This document shows positions 27,949-41,849 of a DNA stretch of 41,849 nucleotides, piece after piece. The translations under genes and the position numbers were made by a program. The notes beneath the pieces are model-generated. The model did not search any database, was not told where the DNA came from, and saw only the letters and a list, made by a program, of their open reading frames with translations. Position 1 is the stretch's first letter. Each line of letters starts with the position of its first letter. The DNA comes from Pelagicoccus sp. (GTDB lineage Bacteria; Verrucomicrobiota; Verrucomicrobiia; Opitutales; Opitutaceae): assembly GCA_028284635.1 (NCBI GenBank), contig JANQRJ010000078.1:1-41849 (forward strand), read 5' to 3'.

Positions 27949-28036
27949 CCTTCCGCTCGCTGTATTGAAAACCTTAGCTCCACTTTGTTGATTTCAGTCG
28001 CTCGGGGAGGGCGGGTGCGAATGAAATGTTGTCCTG

Positions 28037-28283
28037 GTAGGGCCCGATCGTCCCGCAAATGCGCATTGGCGTCAACTTAAGCCAAAAAGTGTCGTACTGG
28101 AGGGCAATGCTCCGTCATTGCCGCGGAGCCTACAAGGGGAATAACCGGTGCGGCAACGACGGAGCGTTGCCCTCCAAAGGATGCTTCTTACGTTAAGTTG
28201 ACGCTTATGCGCAAATGCGGGAGCCGTGTTGCAGGATCCATTCTCCTGCGGCTCCCGCGGTCGGCGGGACGGTCGGGCCCTAC
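28037..28283. repeat. REP pair, GTAG-GGCCC family, interrupted by a miniature element
   Basis: Outer arms: GTAG 28037-28040 with GGCCCGATCGTCCCGC, and GCGGGACGGTCGGGCC ending CTAC 28280-28283. Inside the right half a further hairpin (GGGAGCCG ... CGGCTCCC) surrounds TTGCAGGATC (28229-28238). The left arm is interrupted by the 146-bp element at 28064-28209; removing it with one copy of its flanking repeat restores CCCGCAAATGCGGGAGCC. Confidence 0.8.
28064..28209. mobile_element. 146-bp miniature element with inverted ends and paired REPs inside
   Basis: The ends are CATTGGCGTCAACTTAA and, inverted, CATAAGCGTCAACTTAA. Inside are two facing REPs: GGAG (28099) with GGCAATG-CTCCGT-CATTGCC, and the inverted GGAG-GGCAACG copy ending at 28175. 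The direct repeat CGCAAATGCG flanks it (28054-28063 and 28210-28219), which looks like a 10-bp target duplication, although the near-palindromic target makes the exact edges uncertain. It has no coding capacity. A second copy is at the right window edge. Confidence 0.72.
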
Positions 28284-29052
28284 CTCTGCCCATCAGAGGA
28301 CACGCTTTCAATCGCACCCGGAGAGTGCTTGTCAAAGAACCTGAGCTCGTCGATTGAGCGTCTCGCCTAATCGTTTCCCAGCAAAGAATGCTCCCGTCAT
28401 GCAATTTTTCGGACGAGATGCCAAGTCCGCCAGGCATCGGTACAGGATGGCGAGCAGCTTGCGGTAGGGCGTGGGCACGCTCACAGGTAGGTACTGGCGA
28501 AGGTGGTCGCGGGATTAGAACCGAAAAGCCCCACCAGGCGAAGAGCCGTCGAGCTCGTTGAGCTTGCACGCCTTTACCGGGTTGACCGGTCAGGGGCAAC
28601 AGCCATTCCAGCAGTGCGAAGAATTCCCTGAAGCCCTCGCCGCTGAAGGAAACGCGCGTTGGCTTTCCGGAAGGACTTCTACGGCAGACACAGTTCTGTC
28701 GAGGGAACGTATGAGACGCAGGCGCAAACAGCCTGCAAGACACAATTCTCTACACAAGTCATTGATCTAAAACATCTTAAACAAACTCTTTGGTAAGGTT
28801 ACTAAAAAGTCCGCGCACCCCGCTCCTGGCCTGCCAAACTTCGATAGCCGACGCTACGCGGCACGCGACGAATCTACGAAGATTGGCAACGCCAGAACCG
28901 AATCTCTCGAAAAAAGTGCAAAATAACCCAATAATACTACTTTACTCTTTTATTATTTAATTTTATCTTTTAGCCCTTTTCAAGAAGAGGGTCTAATATT
29001 CGCATTAGGCCTCAATTATCCACCCTTTCAGATTTCCAACCCTCCAGGAGAA
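28284..29052. other. Non-coding stretch before the rnf operon
   Basis: No convincing gene is seen on either strand. A long minus-strand open frame runs through this region and the repeats, but it has no recognisable domain and an arginine/proline/serine-rich composition expected of chance frames in GC-rich DNA; a decayed gene around 28300-28750 cannot be excluded. From 28918 to 29000 the DNA turns very AT-rich (TTTACTCTTTTATTATTTAA), the likely promoter area of the apbE-rnf operon. Confidence 0.5.
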
Positions 29053-30069
29053 GTGAAGCGAAGGCAGTTTGTTTTTGGCGTTCTCGGAGCCGCAGCAGCA
29101 GGTCTGTGCGGCGCACGCTATTTGTCGCGGTCCATGGCCGGCGCAGATTCCAGTCTCACTGGTCCGCTGGTCAAGGTGTCCAAAACTGGACAAGCCCTTG
29201 GGACAAAAGTGGTTATTTCAGTTTTTCACCGGGATTCAGCAGCAGCAAAAAGGGCGCTCGCGGAAGCTTTCGAGGCTATCGAGCAGGTCGAGCAAGTCAT
29301 GAGCCTCTACCGGCCTGAAAGCCAGTTGAGCCAGCTGAATCTCCACGGCTACCTGGCCGATCCTCATCCATTCCTCCGAGAAGTGCTAGAGAGGGCGATC
29401 CGTCTCTCCAAGCAAACCTCGGGAGCTTTCGACATTTCGGTGCAGCCTCTTTGGGCCGCCTACGAAGCGGCATCGAAGGAAGGCCGCTTGCCTACCCGCA
29501 GTGAGATCGCGAGCGCTCGGAGAAAAGTGGATTGGCAACGCATAGAGCTCTCTCCGGAGCGAGTCGCATTCGGCCAAAAAGGCATGGCTCTGACTCTGAA
29601 CGGAATCGCTCAGGGCTATGCAGCCGACGCCGCTTCCAAGGCCTTGAGGGCCCGCGGCATCCAGCAAGCCCTCATCGACAGCGGAGAAATCAGCTCCGTC
29701 GGCACCCCAGTTCAAAAGGATCGATGGACCATCGGCATCAAGCATCCGCGAGAAACGGAGGCATTCATCGGCTTCGCGGGGCTGCAAGGCCGCTGCTTGG
29801 CAACTTCCGGAGACTACGAAACCGTTTTCACCGACGACTTCGACCACCATCATCTCCTGGACCCGCATACCGGACGCTCGCCAAGCCAGCTCTCCAGCGT
29901 CGCCATCGCCGCTCCCACCGCCATGGAGGCAGATGCCTTGTCCACCGCCGTTTTCGTAATGGGCCTCGAGAGAGGCAAGGCATTCGTAGACCGCCTGCCC
30001 AACGTGGACGCCCTATTCGTCGACAAGTCGAGTCGGACCACCCGTACCTCGAACTTCCCTCTAGTATAA
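29053..30069 (+). CDS. apbE: FAD:protein FMN transferase, for Rnf flavinylation
   Basis: A 338-residue ApbE protein that attaches FMN covalently to a threonine of RnfD and RnfG outside the cytoplasmic membrane. It begins with a twin-arginine type signal (KRRQFVFGVLGAAAAGL). Diagnostic segments are MSLYRPESQLSQLN, TSGAFDISVQPLW, LNGIAQGYAAD, the substrate-binding DSGEISSVG, SGDYE and HHHLLDPHTGRSP, plus TAMEADALSTAVFVMG. The GTG start is used because it begins the signal peptide; AGGAG ends only 2 nt before it, an unusually short spacing. It is the first gene of the rnf operon, 24 bp ahead of rnfB, matching the need of its targets. Confidence 0.92.
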   Translation: MKRRQFVFGVLGAAAAGLCGARYLSRSMAGADSSLTGPLVKVSKTGQALGTKVVISVFHRDSAAAKRALAEAFEAIEQVEQVMSLYRPESQLSQLNLHGYLADPHPFLREVLERAIRLSKQTSGAFDISVQPLWAAYEAASKEGRLPTRSEIASARRKVDWQRIELSPERVAFGQKGMALTLNGIAQGYAADAASKALRARGIQQALIDSGEISSVGTPVQKDRWTIGIKHPRETEAFIGFAGLQGRCLATSGDYETVFTDDFDHHHLLDPHTGRSPSQLSSVAIAAPTAMEADALSTAVFVMGLERGKAFVDRLPNVDALFVDKSSRTTRTSNFPLV

Positions 30070-30093
30070 TCGACGTAGACGGAGGCGGTTATC

Positions 30094-30987
30094 GTGTTAA
30101 ACGAATCCACATTCTATATAGTGCTGGGAGCCCTCCTTTTCATGGGCTCTCTCGGATTCGTCCTCGCCGCAACGCTCACCGTGGCAAACAAGAAGCTGCA
30201 CGTCGCGGAAGACCCGCGGATCGACGAAGTCGAAGAGATGCTGCCGAAAACCAATTGCGGAGCGTGTGGAAGTCCCGGCTGCCGAGCATTCGCCGAATCC
30301 TGCGTCGCGGGTGACGCCAACCCCGCCAAGTGCACCGTCAGTCCGCCGGAGATGACCGCGTTTATCGCCGACTATCTCGGGGTGGAGCTCGGAGAGCAGG
30401 AGAAGATCGTAGCCCGGCTCGCTTGCGCAGGCGGCAACCACGTCGCTCGCATGCGCTCACGCTATAGCGGCCTCAAGTCCTGTCGAGCCGCGTTGGCTGC
30501 CGGCGGCGGAGGCAAGGCTTGCTCCTGGGGCTGCCTCGGGCTCGCAGATTGCGAGGTGTCTTGCGATTTCGACGCGATCCACATGGATGAACACGGCCTG
30601 CCGGTAGTCGACGAGGACAAGTGCGTGGCCTGCAACGACTGCGTAGAGGCCTGCCCCCTGGATCTCTTTTCGCTCCAACCCGTGAGCCACCGGCTTTGGG
30701 TCGCCTGCAAGAGCCTGGCCGAGGGAGACGAAGCGCTTGCCGATTGCGAAGTCGCTTGCACCGGCTGCGCCCGCTGCGCCGCCGATGCGCCAGGCGGGCT
30801 GATCAAAATAGAGAACAATCTGGCCGTCGTGGACTACACGAAAAACGCCCTCGCCACCCCTCTCCCTATCCAGCGATGCCCCACCGGCGCCATCGTTTGG
30901 CTCGAGGACCAGAAGACGACCAAAGGAGCCGCCGCCAAACGCATCATCCGCAAAACCCCGCTCCCCATCCAGTCAGACCGACTTTAG
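30094..30987 (+). CDS. rnfB: Rnf complex subunit B, electron-input iron-sulfur protein
   Basis: A 297-residue protein from GTG at 30094, with GGAGG 8 nt upstream. One membrane helix (about 8-30) is followed by the N-terminal cluster domain (Cys55, 58, 63, 80 in NCGACGSPGC). A ferredoxin-like region comes next: Cys143/147/153/157, and Cys177/180/183/187 in CVACNDCVEACP. A second ferredoxin-like pair keeps Cys222/225/228 (CTGCARC) and Cys262 (RCPTGAI). The partner cluster's ligands are gone: CAADAP replaces the usual CxxxCP and no CxxCxxC precedes CPTGAI. RnfB is the entry point for electrons from ferredoxin. Directly upstream of the pyruvate oxidoreductase gene. Confidence 0.93.
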   Translation: MLNESTFYIVLGALLFMGSLGFVLAATLTVANKKLHVAEDPRIDEVEEMLPKTNCGACGSPGCRAFAESCVAGDANPAKCTVSPPEMTAFIADYLGVELGEQEKIVARLACAGGNHVARMRSRYSGLKSCRAALAAGGGGKACSWGCLGLADCEVSCDFDAIHMDEHGLPVVDEDKCVACNDCVEACPLDLFSLQPVSHRLWVACKSLAEGDEALADCEVACTGCARCAADAPGGLIKIENNLAVVDYTKNALATPLPIQRCPTGAIVWLEDQKTTKGAAAKRIIRKTPLPIQSDRL

Positions 30988-31047
30988 CCAAACACCCTTT
31001 TTCCCACTCACTAGCAAGCATCCAGTACCCACTCACCCAATACGAAT

Positions 31048-34000
31048 ATGGTCTCTACGAAAAGCTCCGTCAAATATCCCGGAATCCCAGCTGCGATGGA
31101 TGGCAACACCGTCGTCATCATGTGCGAACGCGAATCCAGCGACGCAGCCGGAGCCTACCCAATCACGCCCTCCACTCAAATGGGCGAGTACTGGGCCGAA
31201 GAAACGGCCAAGGGCCATATTAACATCTCCGGGCATCCGCTCATCTTCATCGAGCCCGAAGGCGAGCATGCCGCGGCTGGCGTCACCGCCGGCATGTCGA
31301 TGACCGGCCTCCGCGCCTCCAACTTCTCCTCCGGGCAAGGCATCGCCTACATGCACGAGTCCCTCTACGGAGCGGTCGGCAAGCGCCTGCCCTACATCCT
31401 CAACGTCGGATGCCGAGCCATCACCAAGACCACGCTCAACGTGCACGCTGGCCACGATGACTACCATCTGATGGACGATACCGGCTTCTTCCAAGTCCTC
31501 GGGAAAAACGGACAAGCCGCCGCCGACCTCAACATCATCTCACGCAAGATCGCCGAGCTGTCGCTTACTCCCGGCGCCGTCGGCCAAGACGGTTTCCTCA
31601 CCACTCACCTCATCGAGACCTTGCTCGTTCCCGAGCGCGGTCTCATCGAAGAATACCTCGGTCGACCAGACGACCTGATCGACACGCCGACCCCCGCCCA
31701 GCGCATCCTCTACGGCGAAAAGCGTCGCCGCGTTCCCATGGTTTGGGACGTCGACAACCCAGTCCTCTCCGGCTCCGCCCAAAACCAGGACGCCTACATG
31801 CAGTCGGTCGCAGCCCAGCGACCCTATTTCTTCGAACACATTTCGGCCATCACAGACCAGTGCATGGCCGAGTTCGCCGCCCTAACCGGCCGCGAATACA
31901 AGCGCGTATCCACTTACCGCTGCGAGGACGCAGACTACCTGGTCCTCGCCCAAGGCAGCATACAAGGCACCGCCGAAGCCGTGGCCGACTACCTGCGCGA
32001 AGCGCGCGGCGTGAAAGTCGGCGTCGTAGACCTCACCATGTTCCGGCCTTTCCCAGGCGACTTGCTCGGCGATATCATCAAGGGCCGAAAAGGGATCGTG
32101 ATCCCGGAACGCACCGACCAACCTCTTGCCGAGGATCTGCCCGTCATTCGCGAAGTTCGCGCCGTCATCAGCAAGTGCCTCGAAAACGGCCTGTCGAAAA
32201 AAGGCAAGGAAGCCTACCCGGACTACGCCACGTATTCAAAACAAGGAGACGCTCCACCTCTCTACTCCTGCTCCTTCGGACTAGGCAGCCGAGACCTGCA
32301 GCCGGAAGCCATCATCGGAGCCATCGAAAACATGCTCCCGGACGGAGCCCAGAAGAAGTTCTTCTACCTCTCCATCGACTTCCTCTACAACAAGCCTTCT
32401 CCCAAGAACCAGATTCATCAGGAGCGCCTCCTCGAGGCCTACCCCGACATTGCCGAACTCGCAGTCAAGGGCAGCGAAAACCCGAACCTCCTCCCCAAAG
32501 GAGCCGTCACCGTACGCATGCACTCCGTCGGCGGGTGGGGCGCGATCACCACCGGCAAGAACCTCGCCATCACGCTCAACGAGCTTCTCGGCTACCACAT
32601 CAAGGCCAATCCCAAGTACGGCTCGGAAAAGAAGGGCCAGCCCACCACCTACTACCTCTCCGCCGCGCCGGAGCCCATCCGCATCAATTGCGAGTACCAT
32701 TTTGTGGATACGGTACTCTCGCCCGACCCCAACGTATTCAGCCACTCGAATCCGCTCTTCGGACTGAAGAAAGGCGGCACCTTCATCATCCAGAGCGACC
32801 TCGATTCGCCCGAGGCAGTCTGGCAGTCCTTCCCCGTCCACTCGCAAAAGTACATCCTCGATAACCAAATCAAGGTCGTCTATCTCGACGCCTTCAAGAT
32901 CGCCCGCGAGGAAGCAACCGATCCCGAGCTCCAGTTCCGCATGCAGGGAATCGCCTTCCAAGGCGCCTTCTTCGCCGCGTCGAATCTCATGGAAACGGCC
33001 AACTTCACCGAAGAAGGGCTCTTCAAGGCCATCCACGAGCAGATCGAACGCAAGTTCGGCAGCAAGGGCGCCCGCGTCGTCGAGGACAACATCCGCGTCG
33101 TGCGTCGCGGTTTCGACGAAATCGTATCGCTGCAGGAAATGGAAGTTTCCGCTCCGCAAAAAGCCGCCCCACGCAAGGAGACCGACCTTCCCCTCATGCT
33201 CAAGCGCACGCCGGCCAGCGACGATCCGAAGACCGACACCCACCGCTTCTGGGAGCAGACAGGAAGCTTCTATCTCGGTGGCAGACCCAACGATCACGTC
33301 GCCGACCCGTTCTCCGCCCTCGCTCTGATTCCGGCCAACACCGGGCTCTATCGCAACATGACGCAGATCCGCTTCCGCCACCCAGTGTGGCATCCGGAAA
33401 AGTGTACCGCCTGCAGCGACTGCTTCACGGTCTGCCCGGACAGCGCCATCCCCGGACTCGCATGCTCCGTTTCGGCAGCTTTCGAAACCACCATCAAGCG
33501 AGTCGTCAAGCAAGGCCATCAAGTGAAGCATCTGCACAAGGCCGTCCGTGTAGTTGAGAAGAAACTACGCGCCGCCACAAACGCGATCAACGGATCTCGC
33601 GAAGACGCCAGTATCGCGACCGCCCCGCTGATCGTCGACGCCATCTCCGACACCATCGCGGAAGCGACCGAGGACAAGGAAGCCCTCATCCAGGAGTTCG
33701 AGTGGTTCCGCGAATCCCTGGGCGACTTCAAGTTCGCCTTCACCAAACCCTACTACGACCAGCGCGAGAAAAAGCAGCCAGGAAGCGGCGGCCTCTACGC
33801 GATCACCATCAATCCCTACACCTGCAAGGGCTGCATGCTCTGCGTCGACGTTTGCGACGACGGCGCGCTGACCACGATCGAGCAGACCTCCGAGAGCGTC
33901 AGCAAGCTGGAGTCCGAATGGGACTACTGGCTCGACCTGCCGACGACCCCCAAGGACTTCATGCGCATCGACGACATCGACGAAAAGGTCGGCGCCCTCG

Positions 34001-35964
34001 AAACGATGCTCATGGACAAGTCCGTCTACCAGTCCATGAGCTGCGGCGACGGAGCCTGCACTGGCTGCGGCGAGAAATCGGTGCTCCACATTTTCACCAG
34101 CACCATCACCGCCCTCATGCAGGGCCGCGTCAAAAAGCACGTCGAATACCTCGACGAACTCATTGGCCGCGTCGAGACCCACCTCAAAGCCAAGCTTGCC
34201 GACACGGTGAACGTCGCCGACCCAAGCGCCATCAAAGCTGTCGTCGAGCGCAGTCAAGACAAGGACCTGAAGCTCTCCGACTTGGCGAACGCCCTGGACG
34301 AAGGCCAGGCAGGCTCGCCGCTCGACCAAGAGTGGCTCACCTGGATGAGCGACATCCTAGCCAAGCTGAAGGACCTGAAATGGCGCTACGAGGAAGGCAC
34401 CACTAAAACCGGCCGGGCCAACATGGGCTTCATGAACGCCACCGGATGCTCCTCCATCTACGGATCGTCGTTCCCCTACAATCCCTATCCATTCCCCTGG
34501 TCGAACCACCTCTTCCAAGACGCCGCTTCCGTTTCCCTCGGTCTCTTCGAAGGCCACATGCGCAGCATGGGGGAAGGCTTCAAGGCCATCCGCATGGCCG
34601 AGTCCGAATTGGCAGGCGAACAGGACTTCAAGAAAATCGAAGCCGATCTGCAGTACTTCAACTGGGAGGCCTTCACCGACGAGGAATACCTGCTCAGCCC
34701 GCCGGTCGTGGCAGTCGGCGGAGACGGGGCGATGTTCGACATCGGCTTCCAAAACGTCTCCCGCGCCCTCATGTCAGGACGTCCCATCAAGATCTTCGTC
34801 CTCGATACCCAAGTGTATTCAAATACTGGAGGCCAAGCCTGTACCTCCGGCTACATCGGACAGGTTTCCGACATGGCTCCCTACGGAAAGGCTTGGAAAG
34901 GCAAGACCGAGGTTCGCAAGGAGATGGCCCTCATCGGAGCCGCTCACCGCACGGCATTCATCCTGCAAGGCAGCCTCGCCAACTACACGCACCTCATCGA
35001 AGGCTACATCGACGGCATCAACTCCCGCCGCCCCGCCCTATTCAGCATATACTCGGTCTGCCAGCCCGAACACGGCGTATCGGACGATGCCACCATGTTC
35101 CGCAGCAAAATGGCCCTCGAATCGCGAGCGTATCCACTTTTCCGATTCGATCCCGATGCAGGCGAATCCTGGGAAGAGTGCATAGACATGGAAGGCAACC
35201 CCTCCATGGAGGACGACTGGCCCGTCTACAAGCTCGAGTACCAAGACGACGACGGCAACCAGCAGACCATGGAGATGCCCATGACCTTCGCCGACTTCGC
35301 GGTGGGCGAAGCGCGCTTCCGCAAGCACTTCCGCGTCGCGCCCGCCGACACTTGGAACGATAACATGGTGCCGCTCTCCGAGTTCATCGACATGGAGGAA
35401 GACGACCGCGAAGGCCTCTTCCCCTACATCTGGTCGGTCGATCGCAAGAACCGCCTCATGCGCGTCCTCGTGGCCGAAGAGCTGGTGCGCTCCACCGAAG
35501 AGCGCCGGGACTACTGGCGTACGCTCAAGGGACTCGCGGGACTCTCTGGCAAGGTAGATCCGGAAGCGATCGCCGCTCAGGTCCGTGGCGAAACCGCTCA
35601 AAAGCTGGCCCAGGGGCTCATGTCCATGCTCGCCGGCGACGGAAGCGCCTCCCTGCCGATCGATCTTCCAAGCGAACCCAACGGATCCGCGGCACCCGCG
35701 GCCACCGCCACTGGCTTCGAGCCCGCTTGGATCGACCGGAACGAATGCACCGCTTGCGACGAATGCATAAACATCAACTCGAAGATCTTCAAGTACGACG
35801 AAGACAAGAAGGCCTTCGTCGACGATCCTCGCGGCGGACCCTACAAGGACATCGTGCGGGCCGCAGAGAAATGCACCGCCCAGTGCATCAACCCAGGCAC
35901 TCCCGCCAACCCCGACGAAAAAGGACTCGATAAGCTGATCAAGCGCGCCGCCAAATTCCAATAG
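31048..35964 (+). CDS. Giant pyruvate:ferredoxin oxidoreductase with fused ferredoxin
   Basis: A 1638-residue single-chain 2-oxoacid oxidoreductase; typical homodimeric PFORs have about 1200. The start has the YPITPSTQMGEYW motif. The middle has the gamma domain (MHSVGGWGAITTGKNLA). Two ferredoxin motifs follow (Cys786/789/792/796 and Cys926/929/932/936), about 130 residues apart, more than usual. The TPP domain has CTGCGEKS (Cys1004/1007), an extra segment of about 95 residues, NATGCSSIYG, GGDGAMFDIG and YSNTGGQACTSG. The extra C-terminus ends in another ferredoxin domain (Cys1567/1570/1573, Cys1609/1613). It should oxidise pyruvate to acetyl-CoA and CO2. Located inside the rnf operon, so its electrons likely go to Rnf. 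Confidence 0.9.
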   Translation: MVSTKSSVKYPGIPAAMDGNTVVIMCERESSDAAGAYPITPSTQMGEYWAEETAKGHINISGHPLIFIEPEGEHAAAGVTAGMSMTGLRASNFSSGQGIAYMHESLYGAVGKRLPYILNVGCRAITKTTLNVHAGHDDYHLMDDTGFFQVLGKNGQAAADLNIISRKIAELSLTPGAVGQDGFLTTHLIETLLVPERGLIEEYLGRPDDLIDTPTPAQRILYGEKRRRVPMVWDVDNPVLSGSAQNQDAYMQSVAAQRPYFFEHISAITDQCMAEFAALTGREYKRVSTYRCEDADYLVLAQGSIQGTAEAVADYLREARGVKVGVVDLTMFRPFPGDLLGDIIKGRKGIVIPERTDQPLAEDLPVIREVRAVISKCLENGLSKKGKEAYPDYATYSKQGDAPPLYSCSFGLGSRDLQPEAIIGAIENMLPDGAQKKFFYLSIDFLYNKPSPKNQIHQERLLEAYPDIAELAVKGSENPNLLPKGAVTVRMHSVGGWGAITTGKNLAITLNELLGYHIKANPKYGSEKKGQPTTYYLSAAPEPIRINCEYHFVDTVLSPDPNVFSHSNPLFGLKKGGTFIIQSDLDSPEAVWQSFPVHSQKYILDNQIKVVYLDAFKIAREEATDPELQFRMQGIAFQGAFFAASNLMETANFTEEGLFKAIHEQIERKFGSKGARVVEDNIRVVRRGFDEIVSLQEMEVSAPQKAAPRKETDLPLMLKRTPASDDPKTDTHRFWEQTGSFYLGGRPNDHVADPFSALALIPANTGLYRNMTQIRFRHPVWHPEKCTACSDCFTVCPDSAIPGLACSVSAAFETTIKRVVKQGHQVKHLHKAVRVVEKKLRAATNAINGSREDASIATAPLIVDAISDTIAEATEDKEALIQEFEWFRESLGDFKFAFTKPYYDQREKKQPGSGGLYAITINPYTCKGCMLCVDVCDDGALTTIEQTSESVSKLESEWDYWLDLPTTPKDFMRIDDIDEKVGALETMLMDKSVYQSMSCGDGACTGCGEKSVLHIFTSTITALMQGRVKKHVEYLDELIGRVETHLKAKLADTVNVADPSAIKAVVERSQDKDLKLSDLANALDEGQAGSPLDQEWLTWMSDILAKLKDLKWRYEEGTTKTGRANMGFMNATGCSSIYGSSFPYNPYPFPWSNHLFQDAASVSLGLFEGHMRSMGEGFKAIRMAESELAGEQDFKKIEADLQYFNWEAFTDEEYLLSPPVVAVGGDGAMFDIGFQNVSRALMSGRPIKIFVLDTQVYSNTGGQACTSGYIGQVSDMAPYGKAWKGKTEVRKEMALIGAAHRTAFILQGSLANYTHLIEGYIDGINSRRPALFSIYSVCQPEHGVSDDATMFRSKMALESRAYPLFRFDPDAGESWEECIDMEGNPSMEDDWPVYKLEYQDDDGNQQTMEMPMTFADFAVGEARFRKHFRVAPADTWNDNMVPLSEFIDMEEDDREGLFPYIWSVDRKNRLMRVLVAEELVRSTEERRDYWRTLKGLAGLSGKVDPEAIAAQVRGETAQKLAQGLMSMLAGDGSASLPIDLPSEPNGSAAPAATATGFEPAWIDRNECTACDECININSKIFKYDEDKKAFVDDPRGGPYKDIVRAAEKCTAQCINPGTPANPDEKGLDKLIKRAAKFQ

Positions 35965-36004
35965 CGGGCCGCGTACCATGAAAGCGAATACAATAAGAAA
36001 TCCG

Positions 36005-36118
36005 AAGGGGAGCGCCCGCGTCTCGCGGGCTCGCTTGGGCGTCTCGCCCAAGCGACTCAGGTCAGATCGCTTGAGGCGAGACGCCTCAAGCAGCCCGCGA
36101 GACGCGGGCGCTCCCCTT
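36005..36118. repeat. Four-hairpin REP cluster, GGAG-GCCCGCG family, within the rnf operon
   Basis: Outer 27-bp arms (36005-36031 and 36092-36118) are perfectly complementary, and each also folds alone as GCCCGCG-TCT-CGCGGGC preceded by GGAG. Inside are two more hairpins: CGCTTGGGCG-TCT-CGCCCAAGCG (36032-36054) and GCTTGAGGCG-AGA-CGCCTCAAGC (36069-36091). It fills the gap between the pyruvate oxidoreductase and rnfC. In RNA it would be very stable and may set differential stability of the operon's two halves. Confidence 0.85.
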
Positions 36119-36135
36119 ATTATATAAGCCCATCC

Positions 36136-37506
36136 ATGCTCGGATTCCTCTCCAGTTTCGGCAAACGCGACACCTTTCCTCATGGGATTCATCCGGATGA
36201 GAACAAAGGGCTGACCGCTCATATCCCGATCCGACGCCTGCCCTTCGCCCCGCAGCTTGTCCTGCCGCTCTCCCAGCATTTTGGAGCGCCTTCCGAGCCC
36301 ATCGCGCACCCAGGACAAGAGGTCGTGCGCGGCGAGCCCATCGCCACCGCGAAAGGATTCATGTCCGTGCCCCTGCACGCGCCGGCGACGGGCAAAATCA
36401 AGGGGATCGAGCTCATGCCTACCGCCAAGGGCCCAAGAACTCCCGCCATCTTGCTGGACGTCTATCCAGGCGACAGCCAGGAAGTGCGCTACGAGGCTGA
36501 GCGAGACGTCGATCAAATGACCCAGCAGGAGATCGTGCAAGCCGTGCAGGACACCGGCCTCGTCGGTCTCGGCGGAGCCGCGTTTCCAACGCACGTCAAG
36601 CTATCCCCGCCCAAGGAACATTCGGTTCACACCGTCTTGATCAACGGCTGCGAATGCGAACCCTTCCTCACTACCGACCACCGCGTCATGCTCGAGCAAA
36701 CCGAGGAGCTGATCACGGGCACGCGGATCCTGATGAAAGCGCTAGGCGCAACCAAGGCCATCATCGCCACAGAGGACAACAAGCTGGACGCGGTCGAGGC
36801 AATCCAAGCCGCCCTGCCGCAAGGCTCTCCCATCGAGGCCCGAGCCGTGCAAACCAAGTACCCGCAAGGCGCCGAAAAGATGCTGGCCAAAGCCCTGCTC
36901 GGGCTCGAGATACCCTCCGGCGGATACCCGTCATCCGTGGGCGTAGGCGTCTTCAACGCCGCCTCGACTGCTGAGCTAGGCGCCCTGCTTCCCCTTAGCC
37001 AAGGGGTTATCGAGCGGGTCGTCACCGTAACCGGCCCAGGTATCGAAAAACGCGGCAACTACATGGTGCCCATCGGCACGCCGATTCGCTTCATCCTGGA
37101 GCGCCTCGGGTTTCGCGGCGACGCGAGCTGCCTGATCATGGGAGGACCCATGATGGGCAACTCCGTCTCCTCGCTCGACGTGCCGATCACCAAAGGCTGT
37201 GGCGGACTGCTCGTATTGACGGAGTCGATACTCGAATCCCAGCTGGAGCAGAAGGTCTACCCCTGCATCAGCTGCGGCCAGTGCCTGGAAGCCTGCCCCA
37301 TGCTTTTGAATCCCTCTCAACTCGGAAAGCTGGCTAACAAGCACCGCTACGAAGAGATGCAAAGCGACTTCCACCTAAACGACTGCTTCGAGTGCGGCTG
37401 CTGCAGCTACGTCTGCCCAAGCGGCATTCCCCTCGTCCAATACTTTCGCATAGCGAAGTCGAGCAACCGCGAAAAAGCCATGCGGGAAAGGGCCAAGGCT
37501 TCATGA
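36136..37506 (+). CDS. rnfC: Rnf complex subunit C
   Basis: A 456-residue peripheral subunit that binds NAD(H) and FMN and delivers electrons to NAD+. The N-terminal FPHGIHPDENK and VLPLSQHFGAPSEPI barrel-sandwich part is followed by the Rossmann-like NADH/FMN domain (DTGLVGLGGAAFPTHVKL, INGCECEPFLTTDHR), the SLBB part (YMVPIGTPIRFIL), and two C-terminal [4Fe-4S] motifs, CISCGQCLEACP and CFECGCCSYVCP. Length fits the family. It is the first gene after the four-hairpin repeat, and its stop overlaps the rnfD start (ATGA). Confidence 0.94.
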   Translation: MLGFLSSFGKRDTFPHGIHPDENKGLTAHIPIRRLPFAPQLVLPLSQHFGAPSEPIAHPGQEVVRGEPIATAKGFMSVPLHAPATGKIKGIELMPTAKGPRTPAILLDVYPGDSQEVRYEAERDVDQMTQQEIVQAVQDTGLVGLGGAAFPTHVKLSPPKEHSVHTVLINGCECEPFLTTDHRVMLEQTEELITGTRILMKALGATKAIIATEDNKLDAVEAIQAALPQGSPIEARAVQTKYPQGAEKMLAKALLGLEIPSGGYPSSVGVGVFNAASTAELGALLPLSQGVIERVVTVTGPGIEKRGNYMVPIGTPIRFILERLGFRGDASCLIMGGPMMGNSVSSLDVPITKGCGGLLVLTESILESQLEQKVYPCISCGQCLEACPMLLNPSQLGKLANKHRYEEMQSDFHLNDCFECGCCSYVCPSGIPLVQYFRIAKSSNREKAMRERAKAS

Positions 37507-38558
37507 GCGCGCCCGCCCAAAGCGTCACGCTGCGCACGTCCCCACACCTGAGGAGCGTGCCCGCAGTGCCCGACATCATGCGCAACGTAGTGTATGCGCT
37601 GATACCGATTTGCCTGTTTTCCGTCTACCAATTCGGCATCAGCGCGCTCGCTCTCCTACTGACCTGCACGCTTTCCTGCCTCGCCACCGAGCACGCCATC
37701 TGCCGCTTGTCCGGCAAAGGCAGCACCGTCAACGACTGGAGCGTCACTATCACCGGCCTCCTGCTAGCCCTGACCCTCCCTCCCGGATTTCCGCTCTGGA
37801 TGGCGGCAGTCGCCTCCATAGCCGGCGTCGGCATAGGCAAGATGTTCTTCGGCGGTCTCGGATACAACGTCATGAATCCAGCCCTCATCGGACGCGCCTT
37901 TGCCCAGGCCGCCTTCACCGTGCCCATGACCACTTGGGTGCCCTTCATGGCAGCAAACCGGTTTACCGATTTCATTCCCTCGACCCTGACTCTGCCCTTT
38001 TTACGTCCCGCCCCCATCGATGGATGGCTCGCATCGGCCAACGTCGACGGATTCACCGGAGCCACGCCCTTGGCGTTGATGAAATTCGAGCAAGTATCCA
38101 CTGATCCAGTACAGCTCCTAATTGGATCCACGGCTGGCTCCTCAGGCGAAGGCTCCGCTCTGCTCATCCTTCTGTGCGGACTCTATCTCGTCGTGCGAAA
38201 AATGATGGACGCGCGCATCGTCGTCAGCGTGCTGACCGTCGCCTTTCTTACTTCTGGGATCTTCTACCTCATGGCCCCAGACAAGTACCCCGGCCCGATC
38301 TTCATGCTGTGCTCGGGCGGACTTATGCTCGGGGCCGTCTTCATGGCGACCGATATGGTAGCCTCTCCCGTCACCTCGCTAGGCATCTGGATCTATGGGG
38401 GACTTATCGGATTCATCACCGTCATCATCCGACTCTTCGGAGGACTGAACGAAGGGATAATGTATGCCATCCTCCTCGCCAACGCCTGCTCCCCCCTGAT
38501 CACGACTGTCACCCAGCCACGTATCTACGGAGCTGTAAAACGGAAGGCCTCCTCATGA
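37503..38558 (+). CDS. rnfD: Rnf complex subunit D, FMN-carrying membrane subunit
   Basis: A 351-residue protein from the ATG overlapping the rnfC stop; longer open sequence upstream is inside rnfC. It shows RTSPHLRSV near the N-terminus, up to ten membrane helices, GYNVMNPALIGRAF and the flavinylation motif DGFTGATP with Thr188 as expected FMN acceptor. The end has YGGLIGFITVIIRLFGG and a segment EGIMYAILLANACSPLI. RnfD forms part of the ion-pumping path. Translation is coupled to rnfC and to rnfG by 4-bp overlaps. Confidence 0.95.
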   Translation: MSAPAQSVTLRTSPHLRSVPAVPDIMRNVVYALIPICLFSVYQFGISALALLLTCTLSCLATEHAICRLSGKGSTVNDWSVTITGLLLALTLPPGFPLWMAAVASIAGVGIGKMFFGGLGYNVMNPALIGRAFAQAAFTVPMTTWVPFMAANRFTDFIPSTLTLPFLRPAPIDGWLASANVDGFTGATPLALMKFEQVSTDPVQLLIGSTAGSSGEGSALLILLCGLYLVVRKMMDARIVVSVLTVAFLTSGIFYLMAPDKYPGPIFMLCSGGLMLGAVFMATDMVASPVTSLGIWIYGGLIGFITVIIRLFGGLNEGIMYAILLANACSPLITTVTQPRIYGAVKRKASS

Positions 38559-39256
38559 GCGGAAACGAAGCAGCCTCTCCTGCCCCTCCCGTCATGCCGA
38601 AGAGCAGCCGGTTGATCGCCGCTCTCGCCATCATCGCCATGGTCTCCGGTTTGCTCGTGGCTATGACCTTTCAAGTAACAGCCCCGCGCATTGCCCTGAA
38701 CAAGCAGCGAGCCCTCGAAAAAGCCATCTTCTCCGTGCTTCCCGACGCCTCCGTCCACGCAAACTTCTCGGCCAAAGACGGAGCGCTGGAGCCCTTGCCC
38801 GCCGACGCCTTCGCCGAAGCGAATCTGTTCGCCGGATACGACGAAGAAGGTCGGCTCGTAGGCATAGCGACCGAAGGCTCCGCCCGCGGCTATCAGGATG
38901 TCGTCCGCATCCTATACGCCTATTCGCCAGAGAGCGAGTGCATCGTCGGCATTACCGTCCTGCAAAGCTCGGAGACTCCCGGCATCGGAGACCAGGTCGA
39001 AAGCGATCCTGCCTTCCTGCAGAACTTCGATTGTCTCGACGCTAAGCTCGATGCGGAAAAATCCCGCCTCGCCCACGAGATCGTGACCGTCAAAAACGGC
39101 AAGAAAACGCAACCGTGGGAAATAGACGGCATCTCCGGGGCAACGATCACTTCCGTCGCTATAGGCGCCGCCCTCAACCAAAGCGCCCAAAGCATGCTGC
39201 CTCTAGTCCAAGCGAACCGCGATCTTCTCGCCGCCAAGGAAGGAGCTGACCAATGA
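38555..39256 (+). CDS. rnfG: Rnf complex subunit G, FMN-carrying periplasm-facing subunit
   Basis: A 233-residue protein from the ATG overlapping the rnfD stop. One N-terminal membrane helix (about 20-40) is followed by an FMN-binding domain with [31 protein letters not shown] and the flavinylation motif [13 protein letters not shown] acceptor Thr197. The FMN is added outside by ApbE, encoded in the same operon. Lengths and motifs are ordinary for RnfG. Confidence 0.95.
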
Positions 39257-39900
39257 GCCAAGATCCCCGAGCGCCCGCGGAGCTTTCATGGGAAACCCTC
39301 ACGCAGGGCGTCTGGAAAGAAAACCCGGTCTTCGTCATGCTGTTGGGCCTTTGCCCCGTGCTTGCGGTCACCAATACGGCCAGCAACGCGCTCGCCATGG
39401 GGCTGGCCACCACCTTCGTACTGTTGTGTTCGGGCGTATTGGTTTCCCTGTTACGCAAGCTGATTCCGAAACAGGTGCGCATCGCGTGCTATATCATCAT
39501 CATCGCAACCTTCGTCACCATAACCGACTACGCAATCCAGGCCATCAGTCTGGACATCTACAAAGCGCTAGGTGCCTTCATCCAGCTCATCGTAGTGAAT
39601 TGTGTGATACTCGGACGAGCCGAAGCCTACGCGTCGAAAAACAAAGTGGCCAATGCTTTCGTCAATGCCCTCGGCATGGGAATCGGCTTCACCCTCGCCC
39701 TGCTTTGCCTCGGCATCGTGCGCGAAGTGTTCGGATTCGGCACGCTATTCGGCATCGATCTATTCGGACCCAACTTCCAGCCATGGGCCGTTTTCGCCCT
39801 GCCCCCGGGCGGATTCTTCGTTCTCGCCTTCTGGCTATTCCTATTCGCCTACGTCCGCCAGCGACGCAACCCATCCAAGGAAGAAGAACATGCAGCCTGA
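39253..39900 (+). CDS. rnfE: Rnf complex subunit E
   Basis: A 215-residue integral membrane protein with six hydrophobic helices and the RnfE/NqrD signature segments: [59 protein letters not shown]. One of the cysteines in GLCPVLA and [10 protein letters not shown] helps hold the membrane [2Fe-2S] centre shared with RnfA. Its start overlaps the rnfG stop (ATGA) and its end overlaps the rnfA start by 11 bp. Confidence 0.95.
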
Positions 39901-40471
39901 TTCCCACGCCTTCATCTTTCTCAACGCGTTTTTGATAAACAACTTCGTGTTGGCCATGTTCCTGGGACTCTGCCCGTTCCTCGGCGTTTCGGGCAAGGTC
40001 AAGACCGCATGGAACATGGGCCTCGCCGTCGTATTCGTGATGCTCGTAAGCTCCATGTGCGCCTACGGCATCAATATCATTCTCGTCCGTTTCGAACTCG
40101 AGTTCCTGCGCCTCATATCCTATATAGCAGTCATCGCCTCCTCCGTGCAATTGGTCGAAATGTTCATCAAGAAATTCAGCCCCGCCCTCTTCCGCACCCT
40201 CGGCATATTCCTGCCGCTCATCACCACCAACTGCGCGATCCTCGGACTCGCCCTTTTCCAGACGAACCGCTCCTACGATTTCACGCAAAGCCTCGCCTTC
40301 AGCTTAGGCGCCGGCGCCGGGTTCGCCCTCGCCCTCGTCCTCATGGCCGGACTGCGCGAGAAGCTGGAACTCGCCGACATCCCCGATACCGTAACTCAAG
40401 CCGCCCTCAGCCTCATGCTCGCCGGTATGCTCTCCCTAAGCTTCATGGGCTTCGCCGGTCTCGGAGGGTAA
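39890..40471 (+). CDS. rnfA: Rnf complex subunit A
   Basis: A 193-residue integral membrane protein, the exact usual RnfA length, from the ATG at 39890; GGAAGAAGAA precedes it. It shows [40 protein letters not shown] and [16 protein letters not shown]. The cysteines in GLCPFLG and TTNCAILG match the RnfA/RnfE centre ligands. It has inverted topology relative to RnfE, and the pair form the core of the ion channel. A 41-bp gap with no clear hairpin leads to the small cysteine protein. Confidence 0.95.
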
Positions 40472-40512
40472 TGTAAACGAAGAATGAAGAACGAAGAATT
40501 TTATAGACCCAG

Positions 40513-40707
40513 ATGATCGTAAAACTTCTCGTATCTATTATTCTAATACTCGGACTTCTCTCCGGTTGGATCCTGGTACAGCATCTAGCTCGCACCTTCG
40601 CGGCTCGCCACCCCGAACTCGGTCCCGCCCGCGAGGAAGGCGGCAGCTGTCTCCTGTGCCTCTGCGGAAAAAACGGCAATTGCCCAAAGAAAAACAAGAC
40701 CCCCTAA
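40513..40707 (+). CDS. Small one-helix protein with four clustered cysteines, possible Rnf maturation factor
   Basis: A 64-residue protein: one N-terminal membrane helix (about 4-26) and a short soluble tail with Cys46, Cys49, Cys51 and Cys57 (SCLLCLCGKNGNC), followed by a basic end. The design (helix plus a Cys-rich tail, encoded with an Rnf/Nqr-type complex) recalls NqrM, which helps insert the iron centre between NqrD and NqrE; RnfE/RnfA hold the equivalent centre. The sequence itself is not clearly NqrM. The frame sits between rnfA and the reductase gene, same strand, with gaps of about 42 bp. It is most likely real; the function is inferred from layout. Confidence 0.72.
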   Translation: MIVKLLVSIILILGLLSGWILVQHLARTFAARHPELGPAREEGGSCLLCLCGKNGNCPKKNKTP

Positions 40708-40749
40708 CCCTCCAGCCCTCCCCACCTTCAGCCATCAGCCTTATAAACA

Positions 40750-41610
40750 ATGAAACTCGCAGAATACGACATCAGCCACCCCTTCACCGCGACGGTTATG
40801 AAATCCGAGCGTATCACCAACTCGAATACCGCAGAAGTTAGACATATCGACCTGAGCGTGCGGAACGAATCCTTCCATTTCATAGAAGGACAAAGCGTCG
40901 CCGTTCTCGCTCCAGGCTCCGAAGCCTTCGGCAACGAGCGGCACGTACGACTCTATTCGATCGCCAGCTCCCGCGAAGGTGAAGGCAGCAAGCCCGACGA
41001 AATTTCGCTCTGCGTCCGCCGCTGCTTCTATATCGATCCCGTCAGCGGAGAACGCTATCCTGGCCTCGCCTCCAACTACCTTTGCGATCTCAAACCAGGC
41101 GACACCATCGAAATGGCTGGTCCCTACGGAAGACACTTCATGCCCCCACGCGACTCCTCGCACAACCTGCTGATGATCGGCATCGGGACGGGCATCGCGC
41201 CGTTTCGGGCCTTCATGAAACACATCTACGAAGACCGCAAGGAATGGACAGGCAAAGTCAGGCTCTTTTACGGAGCCCGCACCGGGATGGACCTGCTCTA
41301 CCAAAACGAGCAGAACCAAGACCTGGCCAACTACTACGATCAAGACACTTTCAAGGCATTCGAGGCAGTCAGCCCACGCCCCCATTTCGACGAACCCGTC
41401 GACTTCGATCGCACCTTCGTCGACAATGTCGAAGAAGCCTGGTCCATGATAAAGGATCCCAATACCCATGTGTACATCTCCGGTATCAGCACGCTCGAGG
41501 AAGCTCTTGACCGAGCCTTCGCCAAGGCCGCCAGTTCCGCCGAGGCATGGGAAACTCTAAAAGCCAAGATTATCGAAGACGGCCGCTGGTCCACCCTTCT
41601 CTACGACTGA
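40750..41610 (+). CDS. Plant-type ferredoxin-NAD(P)+ reductase
   Basis: A 286-residue flavoprotein. FAD-binding motifs are RLYS (67-70) and CVRR (88-91), the latter in the spot typical of plant-type FNR. The nucleotide domain has IGIGTGIAPFRAFMKHIY (about 143-160), LFYGARTGMDLLYQNE and VYISG, and the chain ends TLLYD with a near-terminal Tyr that could stack on FAD. It exchanges electrons between ferredoxin-type carriers and NAD(P)H; NADP preference is typical for the family but cannot be read here with certainty. As last gene of the rnf operon, it may connect the same electron pool to NADPH. Confidence 0.87.
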   Translation: MKLAEYDISHPFTATVMKSERITNSNTAEVRHIDLSVRNESFHFIEGQSVAVLAPGSEAFGNERHVRLYSIASSREGEGSKPDEISLCVRRCFYIDPVSGERYPGLASNYLCDLKPGDTIEMAGPYGRHFMPPRDSSHNLLMIGIGTGIAPFRAFMKHIYEDRKEWTGKVRLFYGARTGMDLLYQNEQNQDLANYYDQDTFKAFEAVSPRPHFDEPVDFDRTFVDNVEEAWSMIKDPNTHVYISGISTLEEALDRAFAKAASSAEAWETLKAKIIEDGRWSTLLYD

Positions 41611-41642
41611 TAAGCGTTAAGAGAAAGTCCACTGGTGTTGTC

Positions 41643-41753
41643 GTAGCGCGGATCCCGCAGAGCGGGACCGCGTCCGCGTCGTGCAGGATCAAACGCCGTA
41701 GCCGCGTTCGTGAGAACGCGGGAAACCATTGCGGACGCCGGTCCCGCTCTGCG
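41643..41753. repeat. Composite REP cluster (GTAG-CGCGGATCC and GTAG-CCGCGTTC families), interrupted
   Basis: GTAG 41643-41646 with CGCGG-AT-CCCGC-AGA-GCGGG-A-CCGCG; then GTGCAGGATC (41681-41690); then a different REP, GTAG 41698-41701 with CCGCGTTC-GTGA-GAACGCGG; then the inverted partner of the first (GGTCCCGCTCTGCG, ending 41753). The partner is cut off before its GGATCC...CTAC by the miniature element that begins at 41754. It follows the reductase stop by 32 bp. Confidence 0.8.
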
Positions 41754-41849
41754 CATAGGCGTCAACTTAACGGAGGAAGCATCCTTTGGAGGGCAACGCT
41801 CCGTCGTTGCCGCGCCGGTTATTCCCTCTGTAGGCTCTGCGGCAATGAC
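41754..41849. mobile_element. Second copy of the miniature element, truncated by window end
   Basis: It starts CATAGGCGTCAACTTAA and continues through GGAG (41788-41791) and GGCAACG-CTCCGT-CGTTGCC, then CCGGTTATTCCC. It matches the reverse complement of the copy at 28064-28209 with few differences, so the two copies are in opposite orientation. Its far end lies beyond the window. Confidence 0.75.

Follow-up and report, generated by a model that had tools for sequence, protein, structure and literature searches.

The stretch of DNA analysed here (hereafter the window) comprises the 41,849 nucleotides of contig JANQRJ010000078.1 from Pelagicoccus sp., and on its + strand, between positions 29053 and 41610, lies an operon in which a gene for a long homologue of pyruvate:ferredoxin oxidoreductase (PFOR) is placed among the genes of an Rnf complex. 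A check of the open reading frames (ORFs) and profile searches of the window's proteins bear out the gene order given in a preliminary description of this DNA: apbE – rnfB – PFOR – rnfC – rnfD – rnfG – rnfE – rnfA – a small protein – a ferredoxin-NADP reductase (FNR)-like gene. Nine of these ten genes match known families, the exception being the 64-residue ORF, and the Rnf subunit set is complete (rnfA, B, C, D, E and G, with RnfG recognised through Pfam). ApbE would carry out the flavinylation of RnfG/RnfD. The features are:

29053..30069, + strand: apbE, FAD:protein FMN transferase (PF02424, E 4.3e-72)
30094..30987, + strand: rnfB, polyferredoxin subunit with a conserved C-terminal extension (PF04060 and RnfB models)
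31048..35964, + strand: long single-chain PFOR homologue of 1638 residues (PF01855, PF17147, PF01558, PF02775)
33457..33822, + strand: first insertion stretch, about residues 804-925, between two internal ferredoxin motifs
34078..34434, + strand: second insertion stretch, about residues 1011-1129, in the thiamine pyrophosphate (TPP) domain
35635..35712, + strand: linker, residues 1530-1555, prediction confidence (pLDDT) below 50, probably disordered
35713..35961, + strand: tethered ferredoxin I-like domain, residues 1556-1638, predicted to hold a single [4Fe-4S] cluster
36005..36118, no strand: palindromic dispersed repeat in the PFOR-rnfC spacer
36136..37506, + strand: rnfC (TIGR01945, 479.9 bits against a cut-off of 245.95)
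37503..38558, + strand: rnfD (TIGR01946, 285.7 bits)
38549..39256, + strand: rnfG (PF04205 above its cut-off; TIGR01947 at 90.5 bits, under its cut-off of 102)
39253..39900, + strand: rnfE (TIGR01948, 233.5 bits)
39896..40471, + strand: rnfA (TIGR01943, 234.7 bits; start codon near 39899)
40513..40707, + strand: 64-residue Cys-rich small protein with a hydrophobic N-terminus
40750..41610, + strand: ferredoxin-NADP reductase-like gene, PetH/BoxA-like (family profile matches)

A contig scan with one genome per species yielded 560 relatives of the PFOR homologue, and the best 80 of these, chosen by similarity, were analysed. The 82 tail-bearing PFORs used below are 78 of these 80 loci plus the window, L118, L034 and L035, sorted by a length of at least 1600 residues, with the truncated L054 and the open-ended L101 excluded. 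They were compared with 15 long PFORs unlinked to rnf and five canonical PFORs, both of them narrow groups, drawn entirely from relatives of the window genome. The window protein possesses the POR_N, PFOR_II, POR gamma, internal Fer4 and TPP_C domains, plus a C-terminal Fer4_13. Four residues that we take from known PFOR structures to be TPP/pyruvate positions (T40, R123, D1226 and N1259) and four that are presumably the cysteines of the proximal cluster (C1004, C1007, C1134 and C1338) are invariant in all three sets; the active site appears intact, and we infer that pyruvate is the substrate. Against TIGR02176, the equivalog model of canonical PFOR/NifJ, the protein reaches 386.4 bits and misses the cut-off of 911.35, so it is filed here as a divergent PFOR homologue outside that equivalog. 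It is about 400 residues longer than the single-chain enzymes of Desulfovibrio africanus (1b0p, 7plm) and Moorella thermoacetica (6cin), from which it differs in having two insertions, a tethered ferredoxin and a gene internal to an rnf operon.

The two insertions had been proposed as features linked to Rnf, and only their sizes (about 75 and 95 residues) have held up, being close to the excess that we measured in the tail-bearing over the canonical PFORs (about +82 and +102 residues). The stretch between the internal ferredoxin motifs has 122-128 residues in the tail-bearing proteins (median 126), 120 in the unlinked ones and 44 in the canonical ones; that in the TPP domain has 100-125 (median 119), 123-127 and 17, respectively. 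As all 15 of the unlinked, tail-less long PFORs, which are all from the order of the window genome, carry both insertions, these mark the long-PFOR family and not the rnf link, and a role as Rnf-specific docking parts is rejected. The window genome itself encodes such a protein (L116:11402-16021, contig C64), a tail-less long PFOR of 1539 residues with both insertions and no rnf nearby, and relatives of this paralogue are present in many genomes of the family. A further set of long-PFOR relatives (L208-L211, L233, L235-L237) consists of ORFs of about 650-1230 residues that best match residues 5-813 of the window enzyme; these are possibly split or shortened forms, and no rnf gene lies in the short flanks examined.

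The C-terminal ferredoxin has a different distribution. Its predicted cluster ligands, Cys1567, 1570, 1573 and 1609, are invariant in all 82 tail-bearing PFORs and missing from all 15 unlinked and all five canonical ones; Cys1613, with which the preliminary description had closed the motif, is conserved in only 52 of the 82. Both the sequence and the predicted fold of the tail resemble ferredoxin I of D. africanus (1fxr, 1dax), which is a free protein whereas its counterpart here is a covalent domain of the PFOR. In the predicted structure of the PFOR, this domain follows the core behind a low-confidence linker, and residues 1520-1560 are Ala/Gly-rich throughout the family. The tail-bearing PFORs form a monophyletic clade with support of 1.0 in a FastTree phylogeny that also contains the long branches of the Y proteins described below. 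It is thus the ferredoxin tail, rather than the insertions, that by sequence comparison tracks the rnf link, although this domain, absent from the 15 unlinked PFORs, is present in four proteins encoded away from rnf (L064 and L222-L224, see below).

The position of the gene between rnfB and rnfC is by no means peculiar to the window. We counted rnfB when it lay within 2 kb upstream and rnfC when it lay within 2 kb downstream, and considered flanks of less than 400 bases untestable. Among the best 80 relatives, rnfB lies upstream in 71 (three untestable, six absent, these last including L069 with a flank of only 475 bases), rnfC lies downstream in 75 (four untestable, one absent), and both neighbours are present in 68. 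Judged by the titles of their sequence records, the linked loci belong to nine phylum-level groups: Verrucomicrobia, Kiritimatiellae, Spirochaetaceae, Proteobacteria (mostly Gammaproteobacteria), Acidobacteria, Hydrogenedentota, SAR324, KSB1 and Calditrichota. Plasmid records extend the range to Bacteroidota (L034), with rnfC downstream of the PFOR and rnfB at the distant end of the gene cluster, and to Gemmatimonadota (L035), with rnf genes on both sides. Pelagicoccus mobilis (L053; Verrucomicrobiota, Opitutia, Pelagicoccaceae in the NCBI placement) has the identical gene order and a PFOR of 84% identity. Since this species and three other named isolates, Thiocapsa roseopersicina (L083), Allochromatium humboldtianum (L093) and Thiothrix caldifontis (L073), carry the linked operon, it is directly testable.

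Because the 80 loci had been chosen by similarity, samples of drawn genomes were also taken; these overlap the earlier loci (the centre genome, for example), and scoring covered the two best candidates of each genome. Among 274 genomes from the class of genome G079, 15 have a tail-bearing PFOR (11 full length, four fragments), and every one adjoins rnfB and/or rnfC; nine of the 11 full-length ones adjoin both, the exceptions being L195, at a contig end, and L199, without rnfB in 1.5 kb. From the phylum of G069, 199 genomes gave six tail-bearing PFORs, three linked and three unlinked. The 57 relatives of the window genome hold three (the window, G004 and G006), all linked, and no rnf gene was present in the short flanks of the 16 tail-less long PFOR loci of these relatives (L003, L007-L021). 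The same gene order in dozens of genomes is more than chance would produce: the arrangement is real and widespread, and its recurrence in distantly related bacteria suggests that PFOR and Rnf act as one unit.

The RnfB proteins of these operons are distinctive as well. Of 288 genomes in the window's phylum, 133 have an RnfB match, and the matches fall into two classes with no intermediates: nine of at least 64% identity, the window included, and 125 others of at most 41%. The former stand apart as a group of their own (64-74% identity outside the window genome), and in the 30 loci that were read the PFOR is adjacent in seven of the nine close ones and in none of 21 others. A strict pattern for the C-terminal extension is found in 65 of 73 PFOR-type RnfBs and in none of eight Kor-type (see below) or 23 canonical loci; seven of the eight that escape it are near variants by eye, leaving Gemmatirosa (L035) as the clear exception. 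Within it Gly278, Arg286 and Pro291 are invariant in an alignment of 60 sequences. When modelled alone this segment is predicted to be unstructured (pLDDT about 45-56), as a binding motif can be. Compared with the Rnf complexes 7zc6 and 9eri, which we take to be those of Clostridium tetanomorphum and Acetobacterium woodii, the window operon has all six subunits in common, with RnfB aligning over residues 13-272, and departs from them in the intervening PFOR and the specific RnfB extension. The window RnfB also lacks the cysteines of terminal cluster II present in 7zc6, and none of the cluster II columns in an alignment of 72 PFOR-type RnfBs reaches 30% Cys (16 sequences were read by eye). This loss had to be rejected as a signature of PFOR linkage, for part or all of these ligands are also missing from 18 of the 19 canonical RnfBs that could be read in the phylum (L172-L190); only L179 has the full cluster, and L171 and L191 are unreadable there.

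A second type of operon bears on the role of the long PFOR. Six of 42 genomes or records searched contain another RnfB, of 51-56% identity, and its loci can include korA and korB, whose products match ordinary two-subunit 2-oxoacid oxidoreductases, and two PFOR relatives that we call X and Y. The full order korA-korB-X-rnfB-Y-rnfC is found in L153, and also in L152, where two small ORFs separate X from rnfB. L150 and L151 run from korA through Y, where the locus ends, and L114, on the same contig, continues rnfC-D-G-E-A; one Calditrichales genome (L151, L114) has the Kor-type operon in tandem with a PFOR-rnf operon. L155 shows rnfB-Y-rnfC at a contig end and L154 rnfB only, while the class sample of G079 adds X-rnfB-Y (L207), X-rnfB-Y-rnfC (L218 and L216 together) and Y alone (L217). 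Y is homologous to PFOR residues 17-1521, and X to residues 1166-1637, tail included. In five of six sequences Y retains all eight cysteines of the medial and distal clusters and none of the four proximal ones; the same five have lost Asn1259, and four Asp1226, the sixth sequence (L150) being poorly aligned. X keeps the four tail cysteines in all three sequences, all of which lack Cys1134, Cys1338 and Asp1226, though X of L152 keeps Asn1259. Y is placed as sister to the tail-bearing PFORs with support of 0.83, with long Y branches in this FastTree phylogeny. X and Y are therefore predicted to be catalytically dead relatives of PFOR, and the substrate of the Kor-type system is presumably 2-oxoglutarate. 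The retention of the cluster wire and the tail, and of these only, beside rnfB suggests that the long-PFOR body may be a relay or docking platform for Rnf, and X and Y are our strongest hint in this direction.

Rnf normally takes its electrons from free, diffusing ferredoxin. The gene order and its conservation, the tail with its invariant cysteines and predicted fold, and the conserved catalytic positions lead us to think it probable that this operon is instead a dedicated pyruvate/Rnf electron-transfer module, with the tethered ferredoxin as the carrier to RnfB. In such a module the PFOR homologue would pass electrons through its internal [4Fe-4S] clusters to the C-terminal domain, and the tether would let that domain shuttle between the distal cluster of PFOR and RnfB, which would exchange electrons with it in preference to free ferredoxin. 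The remainder of Rnf would couple these electrons to NAD(H) and ion movement, the net reaction being pyruvate + CoA + NAD+ <-> acetyl-CoA + CO2 + NADH, which would be coupled to ion transport whichever way it ran. A tether might be of use in aerobic or facultative hosts if it lessens the leakage of very low-potential electrons to oxygen. We infer the carrier role of the tail, the contact between PFOR and Rnf, the substrate, the ion and the direction; a functional coupling of PFOR and Rnf is likely, and a physical one plausible. The docking site of ferredoxin in A. woodii is believed to lie near clusters B1-B2 of RnfB, and the mobile, basic C-terminal region of this subunit has been proposed to act as a "fishing hook" (PMC11889175); a PFOR that carries its own ferredoxin on a flexible arm would suit an entry point of this kind. 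More tentatively, and with perhaps a shade less than an even chance of being correct, the operon would encode one membrane-associated, ion-translocating pyruvate:NAD+ oxidoreductase, in which the tether replaces free ferredoxin, the PFOR body docks on RnfB/RnfC and the reaction is reversible between pumping and CO2 fixation, while a sister machine, probably for 2-oxoglutarate, would use the dead X and Y as the scaffold and wire joining KorAB to Rnf.

Several observations weigh against such a coupled module. The evidence is throughout that of sequences and predicted models. In Halobeggiatoa (L064) the tail-bearing PFOR sits away from rnf, and its PFOR-type rnfB is alone on another contig with no other rnf gene within 17.8 kb. 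Three Acidobacteriota (L222-L224) likewise carry a tail-bearing PFOR with no rnf in 9-10 kb upstream or over the readable 1.3, 6-9 and 2 kb downstream; all three genomes have rnfC homologues elsewhere, and in one of them rnfC is preceded by a 462-residue fragment akin to the predicted-dead X and Y. Four genomes (L049, L050, L090, L109) have their rnfB elsewhere, and two of the close RnfBs (L168, L169) are without a PFOR in their flanks. An electrostatic docking of the tail on a basic RnfB C-terminus is unsupported, the net charge of the tail being not strongly acidic (median only -1), and the FNR-like gene of many operons may encode an alternative partner for the tail. Finally, the 171-base spacer between PFOR and rnfC (folding energy -122.5 kcal/mol) contains a near-perfect palindrome of 114 nucleotides, which makes co-transcription across it uncertain and could uncouple the expression of the two genes. 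With at least 82 matches in the genome, both strands counted, it looks like a mobile palindromic repeat; as a dispersed element it was rejected as a specific regulator of PFOR and rnfC, though it may affect transcript levels.

The alternative that fares best is the same module working mainly in reverse: Rnf, driven by an ion gradient and NADH, would reduce the tethered ferredoxin, and PFOR would act as a pyruvate synthase that carboxylates acetyl-CoA. We regard this as a serious possibility, though on balance somewhat doubtful. Rnf is reversible and its backward operation is on record (PMC11889175, PMC12174285), and the Pelagicoccaceae are aerobic or facultative (PMC10288369). The window genome encodes an E1_dh protein of 387 residues (296 bits) with the size of a pyruvate dehydrogenase E1 and a longer one like that of 2-oxoglutarate dehydrogenase, so that pyruvate oxidation probably has another route, and it has no isocitrate lyase match. 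This last argument, which concerns the glyoxylate bypass, is not general: 11 of 34 searched genomes with a tail-bearing PFOR have a full-length isocitrate lyase. Matches over the cut-off are lacking in those of the 34 hosts that belong to Verrucomicrobiota/Kiritimatiellota and Acidobacteriota. E1_dh matches, a mixture of pyruvate dehydrogenase, 2-oxoglutarate dehydrogenase and others, occur in all 34, and gene content is not decisive for the direction. The ability of many purple and colourless sulfur bacteria to ferment their carbon stores speaks for the oxidative direction. In the window host, whose gene content leans toward synthesis at some times, the ion-driven synthesis of pyruvate and a pumping driven by pyruvate are about equally plausible.

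It is also conceivable, but in our view unlikely, that the genes are merely co-regulated, with electrons travelling via soluble ferredoxin and the tail being an extra partner or a stabilising domain. The clustering in operons of functionally linked enzymes that do not interact is common, and some tail-bearing PFORs are located away from rnf; against this, the tail is restricted to a clade that is nearly always linked, its four cysteines never vary, and the predicted-dead relatives beside korAB and rnfB retain clusters and tail. In a third alternative the partner of the tail would be the FNR whose gene closes the operon (40750-41610), and the PFOR would be a pyruvate:NADP+ oxidoreductase whose reduced carrier Rnf consumes in parallel. 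This is quite improbable, for although the FNR gene resembles PetH, a match to it is missing from 18 of 56 testable related loci (38 have one), while rnf is rarely missing.

The small protein upstream of the FNR-like gene has a homologue in 41 of the 56 testable loci. One of four homologues scanned (L047) matches the NqrM family PF04400, below the cut-off (E 0.0026), and the window protein does not match it; possibly these are NqrM-like maturation factors for the [2Fe-2S] cluster of RnfA/E. Promoter-like sites (five, with 3.3 expected) and terminator-like sites (17, with 14.0 expected) occur at close to chance frequency, and Rfam gave nothing above its gathering scores in 28000-41849. A pair of 100-nucleotide inverted repeats (28114-28213 and 41750-41849, 93% complementary, 13.5 kb apart) flanks the operon; this repeat has at least 40 near-full copies in the genome, and as several of these lie where contigs end, the window contig too appears to have been broken within a repeat.

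Associations of Rnf with 2-oxoacid oxidoreductases have been reported before. In tubeworm symbionts rnf genes are integrated in reductive tricarboxylic acid cycle clusters (PMC6315080), and there, as in Thioflavicoccus, Rnf is placed with 2-oxoacid:ferredoxin oxidoreductase genes and a CO2-fixation role has been proposed (PMC6315080, PMC11636981). Those clusters comprise korABCD, Hdr-Flx and rnf, and the available portions of both papers make no mention of an rnfB-PFOR-rnfC order, a tethered ferredoxin or dead PFORs. In the symbionts of Riftia a "PFOR-like" gene and a korAB fall together (PMC11636981), and this pair could be the Y/korAB system. None of the papers listed in our searches of the open-licence literature, supplements aside, describes a PFOR with a tethered ferredoxin between rnfB and rnfC, and a prior description may exist; relative to those papers the parts are already known and the arrangement is new. 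If our interpretation is correct, a widespread, phylum-crossing Rnf would possess its own dehydrogenase and carrier, a redox pump with a direct coupling to carbon chemistry. Such a pump could account for the way in which aerobic or facultative bacteria cope with a carrier of very low potential, and it may provide an ion-gradient-driven route of CO2 into pyruvate.

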